Virus record (IMG/VR): IMGVR_UViG_3300020469_000007
Location: 1 to 33,124 of that record
Origin: a virus
Reading direction: 5' to 3' (one strand)
DNA: 33,124 nt
Shown here: piece after piece, positions 17,291 to 33,124 of the stretch
How the letters are laid out: every line of letters starts with the position of its first letter
How positions within the stretch are numbered: the first letter of the stretch is position 1
Notes under the pieces: model-generated
Told to the model about the DNA's origin: nothing
The model's database searches: none
Seen by the model: the letters and a program-made list of their open reading frames with translations, nothing else
Translations under genes and position numbers: made by a program

Positions 17291-17560
17291 ATGGCCCGAC
17301 CATTCACAGTGCAGTGTCAAAAATACACCAAACGACGCCCACACTACTCACCAGAAACATTTCACCAACACACCGAGTGTCCCAAATGTAAAAGCAACCA
17401 TTTTCTGTGCGAAGTGCCTCAGAACACCCTGTATGGATACTACAGAACCTACGGACACAAAACCAAACACGTGCAGTGGCGCATAAGATGTGCCAATCAC
17501 AAATGTTCAGAACCTTTTGGTGTGATACTCAAGGTTGAACACGCAGACAGCGCCACGTAA
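17291..17560 (+). CDS. Zinc-ribbon protein, possible Ogr/Delta-like late activator
   Basis: An 89-residue basic protein. Cysteines at 30 and 33 (CPKC) and at 67 and 72 (RCANHKCSEPFG) make a zinc site of the form C-x2-C ... C-x4-C. The second half has the 'C-x-N-x-x-C-S-x-x-F' pattern of the P2 Ogr / P4 Delta family, which switches on late genes. The spacing between the pairs (33) is longer than in Ogr (about 22), and an extra Cys lies at 40. It starts directly after the holin-like gene. The family assignment is tentative; a generic zinc ribbon is the alternative. Confidence 0.55.
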   Translation: MARPFTVQCQKYTKRRPHYSPETFHQHTECPKCKSNHFLCEVPQNTLYGYYRTYGHKTKHVQWRIRCANHKCSEPFGVILKVEHADSAT

Positions 17561-17577
17561 TAAATATTTCAGCGGGA

Positions 17578-17639
17578 GTGCTGGGTTTAGCGATACGTCA
17601 AACACATCTCAAACAAATCTTCCCATTTGTACCCAGCAC
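17578..17639 (+). other. Hairpin with nine-base-pair perfect stem
   Basis: GTGCTGGGT (17578-17586) and ACCCAGCAC (17631-17639) are perfect inverted copies with 44 bases between. An AATAAATA element lies just upstream, at the zinc-finger gene's stop codon (17559-17566). A second stem follows (17652-17659 with 17667-17674, one G-T wobble). No T tract follows, so a simple terminator is unlikely. It could be a processed 3' end or a small structured RNA. Confidence 0.5.
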
Positions 17640-17692: not shown

Positions 17693-17721
17693 TTGACTTT
17701 TTCATCACAGTGCTATATAAT
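17693..17721 (+). promoter_or_regulatory. Sigma70-type promoter before DUF3820-like gene
   Basis: TTGACT (-35, 17693-17698), a 17-base spacer and TATAAT (-10, 17716-17721), nearly a consensus bacterial promoter. The start of transcription is expected at about 17728, which is at the ATG of the next gene (17729), so the mRNA would be leaderless. This and the promoter of the leftward operon are the two host-type promoters that I see, which suggests early expression by host polymerase. Confidence 0.75.
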
Positions 17722-17728
17722 TGTTGAA

Positions 17729-18049
17729 ATGGCAAAAATAGATTGGTCCAAACACAATTATCACAATGATGTTCACTCTGCGGTAGGCACAGGTCGCCGT
17801 CGGATTGCTTATGAGCGTGAAGTGGAATGGAGCAAACTGAAATTTGGCAAACACAAAGGCAAAACACTGAAACAGGTGCCCATCAACTATTTGCGATGGA
17901 TAGTGAGCACATGGTTACCCAACAGCAAAATGGCAAAGGCAACAATCAACAACGCAAAACATGAAATCACACAGAGGCAAAGCATAGCATCCACAACAAC
18001 AGGGACAAAGGTTGCAAATCCTAAAATATCAGTCCAAGATGCCAATTAA
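17729..18049 (+). CDS. DUF3820-like small protein
   Basis: A 106-residue basic protein. Residues 37-63 (LKFGKHKGKTLKQVPINYL and following) match the FGKYKG-x-x-L-x-x-x-P-x-x-Y-L-x-W core of DUF3820 (sometimes named putative quorum-sensing-regulated virulence factor), a small domain found alone or next to nuclease domains in phages. It has no visible nuclease residues itself. The ATG at 17729 is chosen because the promoter leaves no room for a leader; no Shine-Dalgarno is present. It is probably an early gene of unknown function. Confidence 0.65.
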   Translation: MAKIDWSKHNYHNDVHSAVGTGRRRIAYEREVEWSKLKFGKHKGKTLKQVPINYLRWIVSTWLPNSKMAKATINNAKHEITQRQSIASTTTGTKVANPKISVQDAN

Positions 18050-18575
18050 CACTGACGGATTGCCCTTAGGCATGATATTGGTGAGTGTGTCGCAAACACT
18101 ATCACATACACGGTAACGCAGTGATAGACTCCTAACAGAGAGTCGTGGCAGGTAAGGAAAAGCACAGAGTCCTGCGACAATACACAATTCAAAACACCTG
18201 CTTCCAGTCTCATTCGTTCAACACGATTCAAGAGACAATAGATGGAACCCCAGGACGGGTTCCGTCTATTCAATCAATCAGATTCAAGCAAAACAAAACA
18301 AAACAAAGTGACGTCAGTCACTTTAGACTGAACTTGTTTCAGTCTCCACCACAGTGTGTGTGATTGAGGGTAAATATTGATGGCACATCACGTTACATCA
18401 ATATGCCATTGATCCCCTTCATGGGGTTATATCCTAATGGGTGTGCCACACCTCAGTGAGTGTGAGATATCACAGAGTAAATACTGATGTATTCTGACAA
18501 CAATCAGTTTACTCCTTAAACGGGTGGAGGTGCAGTCCAAGTCTGTCATTTCGTTACTCACTTCCACTCACACAC
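18050..18575. other. Hairpin-rich non-coding region (candidate structured RNA or origin)
   Basis: About 525 bases with no convincing gene and at least seven inverted repeats: 18099-18127 (7 bp), 18142-18178 (8 bp with bulge), 18237-18270 (14 bp, one wobble, six-base loop), 18305-18324 (8 bp, perfect), 18325-18345 (8 bp, perfect), 18374-18404 (9 bp, perfect) and 18475-18514 (12 bp with a two-base bulge). Two TAAATA elements lie inside the last two. It lies between the host-type promoter gene and the next small gene. It may be a large structured RNA, a replication origin or a packaging site. Confidence 0.7.
18237..18270. repeat. Strongest inverted repeat of the region (14-bp stem)
   Basis: The arms 18237-18250 and 18257-18270 pair over 14 bases (one T-G pair) with a CAGGAC loop. 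It is flanked by direct GATTCAAG copies (about 18225-18232 and 18281-18288). This symmetrical arrangement is typical of a protein-binding or replication element. No T tract follows, so it is not a normal terminator. Confidence 0.75.
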
Positions 18576-19025
18576 ATGATGATGAACCAATTCCAATACA
18601 CCCTGCACGTGATGAACTTCCTGCAGAGAACCATGCACGATGTCAAGATGAACTCCATATGGTCACCAGATGCACACCATCACATACGCAAACTGTTGAA
18701 GAGCAAACCCAACCGAATCATACATGAGAAACCCTACACACACATATTCTCACTGAAACCACGCACATTTAAAGAATATCAAGACATCATAACTGCACAC
18801 GCAGAAAGAGGCACACACATGATGTTGATCACTGAAATGAAAGTGAGTGAGAGAGATGAATGGCACAAACAAATGAAAGACATGGTCACTGTGTACGAAC
18901 ACCTCACTGTCGCTCATGAGGAAGGCATAAAATGGATCAGAACCTTGAGCAGAGTGGATGCCAGTTACAAGAATGTGAGTCAAACAGGTGCAATGAAAGG
19001 GTTCTGGCCACAGGACAAATCATAA
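18576..19025 (+). CDS. Hypothetical protein beside the structured region
   Basis: A 149-residue, His/Met/Lys-rich, probably helical protein, not recognised. It starts with three consecutive Met codons (18576, 18579, 18582) and has no Shine-Dalgarno. A WSPDAHHHIRKLLKSKP segment lies at about 29-45, followed by YTHIFSLKPRTFKEYQDII. An amphipathic stretch at 89-115 includes KVSERDEWHKQMKDM. I see no Rep, primase, integrase or sigma motif. Its place next to hairpins makes a DNA- or RNA-binding role possible, but that is only context. It is the last rightward gene before the convergent gap. Confidence 0.55.
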   Translation: MMMNQFQYTLHVMNFLQRTMHDVKMNSIWSPDAHHHIRKLLKSKPNRIIHEKPYTHIFSLKPRTFKEYQDIITAHAERGTHMMLITEMKVSERDEWHKQMKDMVTVYEHLTVAHEEGIKWIRTLSRVDASYKNVSQTGAMKGFWPQDKS

Positions 19026-32735: not shown

Positions 32736-33124
32736 TGGCATTAAGCGAAGCACAAAAAACTGTTTGTACAAATGATTCACGATTCCGTGTAGCAGTGACA
32801 GGAAGACGTTTTGGAAAAACGCATTGTGCTTTAAGAGAATTGGCAAGGCACGCGGCAAAAGAAAATCAAAAAGTTCTATATTGTGCTCCGTCCTACAGAA
32901 TGGCAAAAAGTATAGCGTGGGAAAATTTAAAAGCAAAATTAAAAGAATTACGTTGGGTATCACAAACCAACGAAGCAGAATTAACAATAACATTAAAATC
33001 AGGATCTAAAATATTTCTAAAAGGTGCAGAAAACAAAGATGCACTCAGAGGTGCTGGTTATGATTTTATTGTGTTGGATGAATTTCAGGATTTAGATTCA
33101 GAATTGTGGACAGCAGTTTTAAGA
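32735..33124 (+). CDS. terL: Terminase large subunit, N-terminal part (continues at base 1)
   Basis: N-terminal ATPase portion. Walker A is GRRFGKTH (residues 23-30), with LYCAPSYRMAK (48-58) and the coupling region LKGAENKDALRG following. Walker B FIVLDE (111-116) lies in the repeated end. After removal of the 77-base overlap, 313 bases here plus 920 at the beginning make 1,233 bases, exactly 411 codons with the stop. It is not a truncated gene. Confidence 0.95.
   Translation, partial: MALSEAQKTVCTNDSRFRVAVTGRRFGKTHCALRELARHAAKENQKVLYCAPSYRMAKSIAWENLKAKLKELRWVSQTNEAELTITLKSGSKIFLKGAENKDALRGAGYDFIVLDEFQDLDSELWTAVLR
33048..33124. repeat. Terminal direct repeat, right copy
   Basis: Identical to bases 1-77. 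It should be counted once in the circular map. Confidence 0.97.

Follow-up and report, generated by a model that had tools for sequence, protein, structure and literature searches.

A hairpin cluster in an aquatic virus genome appears to mark a new and widespread family of structured phage RNA

The window analysed here is an IMG/VR virus contig of 33,124 bases. Its first 77 bases are repeated exactly and in direct orientation at its end (1-77 = 33048-33124), and these identical ends make it most likely that the record represents an entire genome, 33,047 bp in length; two relatives, G018 and G026, have terminal repeats of 127 and 133 bp. The window carries structural genes for terminase, portal, capsid and tail proteins, together with a group of methyltransferase, glycosyltransferase, cupin and asparagine-synthase-like genes. 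Judged by its portal protein, the nearest named phage is DSL-LC06 from Dishui Lake (58%), followed by the Pelagibacter phages HTVC111P/112P/202P/026P (41-43%). The cumulative GC skew of the window peaks at ~16.5-17 kb and tracks the coding strand. A small cysteine-rich protein encoded at 17291-17560 (CPKC...CANHKC) looks, by eye, like an Ogr/Delta-type late activator; it has no Pfam match at E<=1.

A small ORF at 17693-18049 ends one base 5' of a non-coding stretch that a preliminary description had singled out for a run of inverted repeats between 18099 and 18514. All of the repeats it named are present: a main hairpin with arms of 14 nt each that are 93% complementary (18237-18250/18257-18270), flanked by copies of GATTCAAG at 18225-18232 and 18281-18288; perfect 8-bp hairpins at 18305-18324 and 18325-18345; and further stems at 18099-18105/18121-18127, 18374-18382/18396-18404 and 18475-18481/18508-18514. 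Their density, said to be unique, is indeed the maximum for the window, where up to 9 entries fall within 420 nt and the mean is 0.92 (stems >=7 bp, loop <=20, nested stems included). When the region was folded, the plus strand of 18050-18575 reached z -5.75, with none of 100 dinucleotide shuffles as good, and the minus strand folded less strongly (z -3.6). A T tract follows none of the stems, in agreement with the view that they are not ordinary terminators. The stems had been presented as one cluster, possibly a large structured RNA, a replication origin used by a helper or host, or a packaging site. The stems are real, but they divide into two elements: an RNA supported by covariation up to 18345, and a leader hairpin element from 18371 that lies outside it (Table 1).

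Table 1. Features at and around the RNA locus. Positions are those of the window unless another record is named. A1, alignment of nine close relatives; A2, 56 aligned cores of the wider family.
Feature	Position	Strand	Evidence
Small ORF, likely start ATG 17729, QSregVF_b / ExoX-like C-terminal similarity	17693..18049	+	Pfam
Conserved structured non-coding RNA	18050..18345	+	nhmmer, covariation, CM match
5' hairpin of window-type RNA, CACTGA../..TTGGTG, inner TGCC/GGCA	18050..18083	+	A1 columns 69-102: both-sided changes in 4/12 pairs
Core domain, closed by GTGT-G-TCGC (18085-18093) / GCGAC-AAT-ACAC (18174-18185)	18085..18185	+	TCGC/GCGA, CTGT/ACAG, CTGA/TCAG in different relatives
Hairpin in core, CTATCAC/GTGATAG; TCGTCAC/GTGACGA in relatives	18099..18127	+	3 compensatory pairs in A1; 3/3 counted pairs covary in A2
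Small variable hairpin	18128..18143	+	Covarying pairs
Pseudoknot, GCAGGT (18148-18153) with ACCTGC (18196-18201)	18148..18201	+	A2: paired in every sequence (100% of cells), compensatory change in 4/5 counted pairs
Hairpin AGGA/TCCT, strongly conserved loop AAAGCACAGAG	18155..18173	+	A2 alignment; pair 155-173 covaries
Module copy 1, GTCTC ... GATTCAAGAGAC, heptamer 18226-18232	18207..18236	+	GTCTC/GAGAC stem; concerted heptamers
Main hairpin, AATAGATGGAACCC/GGGTTCCGTCTATT	18237..18270	+	4/9 counted pairs covary in A2
Module copy 2, GTCTATTC ... GATTCAAG, heptamer 18282-18288	18263..18288	+	21-nt direct repeat of copy 1, 76%; concerted heptamers
Two adjacent 3'-terminal hairpins, position kept, stems differ between relatives	18305..18345	+	GTGAC/GTCAC vs GCGAT/ATCGC; GACTGAA/TTCAGTC vs GACAGAT/ATCTGTC
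TAAATA (18371-18376) and hairpin TGGCACA (18381-18387)/TGTGCCA (18442-18448), loop TGCCATTGA; leader of ORF 18576-19025	18371..18448	+	Layout repeated in related genomes
Second copy of TAAATA and hairpin leader, before ORF at 17693	17561..17639	+	Same layout
Stem GAGTAAA/TTTACTC around further TAAATA (18478-18483)	18475..18514	+	Window sequence alone
Leader copies in other records	L005 4870 and 7105; L006 5637; L008 5657; L009 5655; G017 9180; DSL-LC06 (L086) 1635		
TAAATA upstream of window genes, examples	4082, 5804, 12039, 24920, 29626		
SegE-type GIY-YIG genes by the RNA, examples	L169 5372-5800; L121 5070-5576; L127 7550-7975	Same strand as RNA	Pfam

Related contigs were recovered through the ORF at 17693-18049, which adjoins the RNA in nearly all close relatives; one relative (L041) has the RNA and no detected upstream ORF. 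An nhmmer search with the stretch behind this ORF found eight RNA-bearing contigs beyond the window at E 1e-93 or better. Close relatives share long blocks of identical sequence in the non-coding stretch, whereas the proteins flanking it are only 45-79% identical in several of them, and conservation of the DNA begins already at ~18006, within the end of the upstream ORF. The RNA measures ~300 nt in the window and ~400 nt in most family members, which have an extra 5' domain starting with AAGGTTGGCGGGCC. Genes 3' of the RNA (after 18345 in the window; also in L005, L006, L008 and L009) differ between close relatives, so the RNA lies at one edge of a region of variable cargo.

The strongest evidence for an RNA is covariation between relatives, the count of palindromes being weaker. 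The preliminary description had proposed this check, and the stems, rather than being lost without compensation, are maintained by it. In the nine close relatives, double compensatory changes were found in 17 of the 70 pairs of the named structure, and 97.1% of cells are paired; four of the five measures are higher than in any shuffle, the exception being the number of pair types, which is not raised, and the structure also exceeds the slid controls. In the same nine sequences RNAalifold found double changes at 18 pairs. Among the 56 aligned cores of the wider family, 22 of 32 pairs covary with 95.6% of cells paired, and all five measures exceed 500 of 500 shuffles and every slid control. With 90 full-length members, RNAalifold predicted 104 pairs of which 40 covary, several 5'-domain helices included, although this count is weaker than that from the 56 cores because a single alignment supplied both the structure and the count; one 5'-domain pairing predicted in this way, UGUGGA/UCUACA, is not kept in L148. 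The exchange of the stems at 18305-18345 for different but complementary sequences in relatives is strong evidence that these hairpins belong to the RNA.

Short ORFs do cross the region, but single-base insertions and deletions between relatives break the reading frame and argue against a coding function, and chance palindromes or terminators are contradicted by the covariation and the missing T tracts. Together these observations leave a negligible probability that the region holds fortuitous hairpins, terminators or an overlooked protein gene, and we regard a genuine, conserved structured RNA as almost certain.

The stems at 18371-18514 are a promoter-like or leader element separate from the RNA. 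Its layout, in which TAAATA is followed after 2-11 nt by a hairpin with unrelated stems and a loop that mostly contains a CCATT word, recurs in ~10 places of related genomes, with a different loop in the DSL-LC06 copy, and it explains the stems listed earlier at 18374-18448. The core of T4 late promoters is TATAAATA, which TAAATA resembles. The motif occurs upstream of 9 of 38 window genes against 2.0 expected, a value reached in none of 300 shuffles; G028 and the T4-like fragment G001 show such an enrichment as well, and other genomes show it less clearly. TAAATA was discarded as the promoter of the RNA, upstream of which it is not enriched.

Two words within the RNA served as seeds for wider searches. 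The loop word AAAAGCACAGAGTCC recovered ~65 more distant loci and the 5'-domain word CCGCTGTGGAAAAAC at least 66 further ones, and the RNA was found in total at no fewer than 156 IMG/VR loci, at least 109 of them distinct over the core. Such searches are biased towards members that contain the seed words, and the invariance of AAAGCACAGAG and CCGCTGTGGAAAAAC therefore arises partly by construction; the conserved loop does vary, later members carrying AAAGGTCAGAG. The covariance model of the family, R1, matches the window over its full length (161.8 bits, E 1.2e-38), the window being one of the 56 training rows, and the window has both the pseudoknot GCAGGT/ACCTGC and the equal heptamer repeats of the family.

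Neither the window nor nine carrier loci matched any family in Rfam 15 at gathering score (GOLLD, ROOL, OLE, HEARO, tmRNA, RNase P, introns and phi29 pRNA included), and matches at E<=10 were weak and below gathering scores. ARAGORN found no tRNA or tmRNA in the window. The seed GTGGNAGGN{1,3}GGAAAAGCACAGAG had no match in the bacterial and archaeal genomes of 84,980 species; twelve bacterial or archaeal contigs with a looser 17-base seed gave partial model matches of 17-33 nt, which we attribute to chance. Searches of named phages by blastn with three RNA queries returned no match, although an RNA of changed sequence could escape blastn, and model R1 found no convincing match in DSL-LC06 or in four Pelagibacter phages. 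DSL-LC06 (L086) does have, at 573-1327 and in a similar genome place, a long unannotated stretch with hairpins, which by model R1 is not a homologue of the RNA. By these comparisons the hairpin cluster appears to represent a new and widespread virus RNA family that matches no known RNA family, and within the databases searched the family is seen only in uncultivated water viruses. Fremin and colleagues reportedly screened IMG/VR for structured virus RNAs in 2023, and the RNA may already be present, unnamed, in large screens of this type.

The copies of GATTCAAG are part of a module, GTCT...ATTC...GATTCAAG, that stands once on each side of the main hairpin. The two heptamer copies are identical in 84 of 98 distinct RNAs, compared with a mean of 28.8 and a maximum of 42 in 2000 shuffles, where six of the 14 mismatches reflect a parser offset and the relatedness of members inflates the agreement. 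At least ten forms of the heptamer occur (ACATGAA, ACATAAA, ACAGAAA, GCATAAT, GCATGAA, GTATGAA, GGCGAAA, ATTCAAG, ATTCAGA and ACATAAT), and in the near relative L010 both copies are altered alike. Equal repeats that vary in concert suggest that one partner may bind the RNA twice, once at each module. Heptamer enrichment in the small genomes followed no clear pattern.

The RNA is carried by two kinds of phage, ~30-kb phages like the window and large T4-like phages. Among the loci listed, 32 distinct RNAs are window-like, 72 T4-like and 5 unlabelled, the labels being drawn from neighbouring genes. Carriers were called T4-like on two grounds: the T4 capsid family Gp23 has matches in 12 carrier records (E 1e-53 to 1e-99), whereas the window-like records have none, and gp46/47-like genes stand near the RNA; the 30.9-kb fragment G001 is of this kind. 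Three complete window-like carriers (the window, G018 and G026) are without detectable replication genes: the tested ORFs of these ~30-kb genomes yielded no replication protein, and many ORFs have no known function. The best tree of the RNAs at the loci listed contains six switches between the groups, three of them forced by well-supported branches, and by this measure the RNA has crossed between the two phage groups at least three times. Its place also varies, from after the tail fibres (the window and close relatives) to upstream of TerS (other small phages) or near gp46/47-like genes (T4-like phages), and the lack of a fixed position suits a trans-acting product. Both kinds of carrier occur together in several metagenomes, for example 3300008266, 3300032323, 3300042402, 3300042691 and 3300042868, which is weak evidence for shared hosts.

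Of 59 locus sets, 32 have the gene for a 141-residue protein of the SegE GIY-YIG family (Pfam PF19835, E 1e-30) next to the RNA and on its strand. Many T4-like carriers have a small zinc-ribbon-like or ExoX-C-like ORF between the SegE gene and the RNA, and the window ORF in that place is of the ExoX-C-like type. Five named phages that encode this endonuclease family were examined, and none showed such an RNA beside it. PHROG labels the SegE-type family (phrog_447) 'NAD synthetase', probably a misnomer given the Pfam match to SegE_GIY-YIG at E 1e-30.

The reading we favour over origin, mobile-cassette and packaging roles, at a probability of about one half, is that of a trans-acting RNA or RNA-protein particle. 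The RNA would be read from the plus strand, probably forming the 3' portion of a transcript shared with the small ORF, and would act in trans during infection. Two copies of one partner would bind one RNA and co-evolve with it, this being the simplest reading of the same variable heptamer in both modules; the partner could be one target RNA or a protein, perhaps that encoded by the adjacent small ORF. The RNA would move from one phage group to another as a portable cassette, with the SegE-like homing endonuclease beside it assisting in many carriers. Counting against a general need for the RNA, DSL-LC06 belongs to the same phage group and has no detectable copy, so not all phages of the group need it.

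Transcripts prime replication in ColE1 (RNA II) and at the R-loop origins of T4, and the RNA could instead be a cis-acting element whose transcript serves to prime or license replication, the copying being done by the host or by a T4-like helper carrying the same RNA. Such an element would account for the copying of ~30-kb genomes that have no replication genes, and it agrees with the lack of any replication protein found in the complete genomes, with the presence of one RNA per genome searched, and with an RNA common only to window-like and T4-like phages. We consider it possible but unlikely, as the genome position of the RNA is not constant, DSL-LC06 is also without annotated replication genes and yet has no RNA, and the compensated pairs in several separate domains exceed the needs of a primer; GC skew is uninformative here. 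The same two facts, complete genomes without replication genes and an RNA common to T4-like phages, leave room for a satellite-helper relation as well as for a replication role. Speculatively, the ~30-kb phages might be own-capsid satellites whose DNA replication and late transcription rely on T4-like phages, with the shared RNA as a molecule of competition for, or recognition by, the same machinery. This proposal draws on the missing replication genes and the T4-late-promoter-like TAAATA sites, and we think it unlikely to hold.

Repeated movement between phage groups and the frequent SegE/GIY-YIG neighbour (32 of 59 sets, always on the same strand) would also be expected if the RNA were a target or passenger of the homing endonuclease and persisted mainly by homing. 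However, marine members, the window included, keep the RNA without an endonuclease, the RNA interrupts no gene, the five named phages have the endonuclease family without the RNA beside it, and the fold and loops are under strong purifying selection, all of which make a selfish cassette distinctly unlikely. A packaging RNA or packaging signal for the terminase motor is very improbable: the RNA does lie upstream of TerS/TerL in many small phages, but it is far from the terminase genes in the window, the T4-like carriers are without a terminase detectably related to that of the window, and Rfam gave no match to known packaging RNAs.

Large structured phage RNAs are few and mostly unexplained. 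This RNA occurs commonly in viruses of lakes and the sea and passes between unrelated phage groups, and its paired repeats, which change together, are an unusual clue. It offers a concrete handle on the life of phages without replication genes and on the uses of big phage RNAs. Group I introns with GIY-YIG homing endonucleases likewise combine a structured RNA with a GIY-YIG gene in phages, but the window and nine carrier loci have no Rfam intron match, and the RNA is intergenic. HEARO, the omega RNA of IscB, is also a structured RNA beside a same-strand nuclease gene; here there is no Rfam match and no guide shown, and the neighbour, rather than an IscB/IsrB-type nuclease, is a separate and often absent SegE GIY-YIG gene. 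Among satellites, the Streptomyces phages Mulch and Flayer are described as having encapsidation genes and being without key replication genes (PMC10690885), and the window phages may be similar in this respect: the window has structural genes, and no replication family was found among its tested ORFs, many of them of no known function. For the window phages a helper is hypothetical, and the abstract describing Mulch and Flayer does not mention a shared RNA. The closest parallels are GOLLD and ROOL, large ornate phage and prophage RNAs represented in Rfam (PMC12286853). The window RNA is smaller than these and has no covariance match to them, the window has no tRNA genes, and the window family has concerted direct repeats and adjoins SegE genes or small ORFs. 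Although it is unrelated to GOLLD and ROOL by every test made, the window RNA is of the same general kind: a large, highly structured and pseudoknotted phage RNA, encountered largely in metagenomes.
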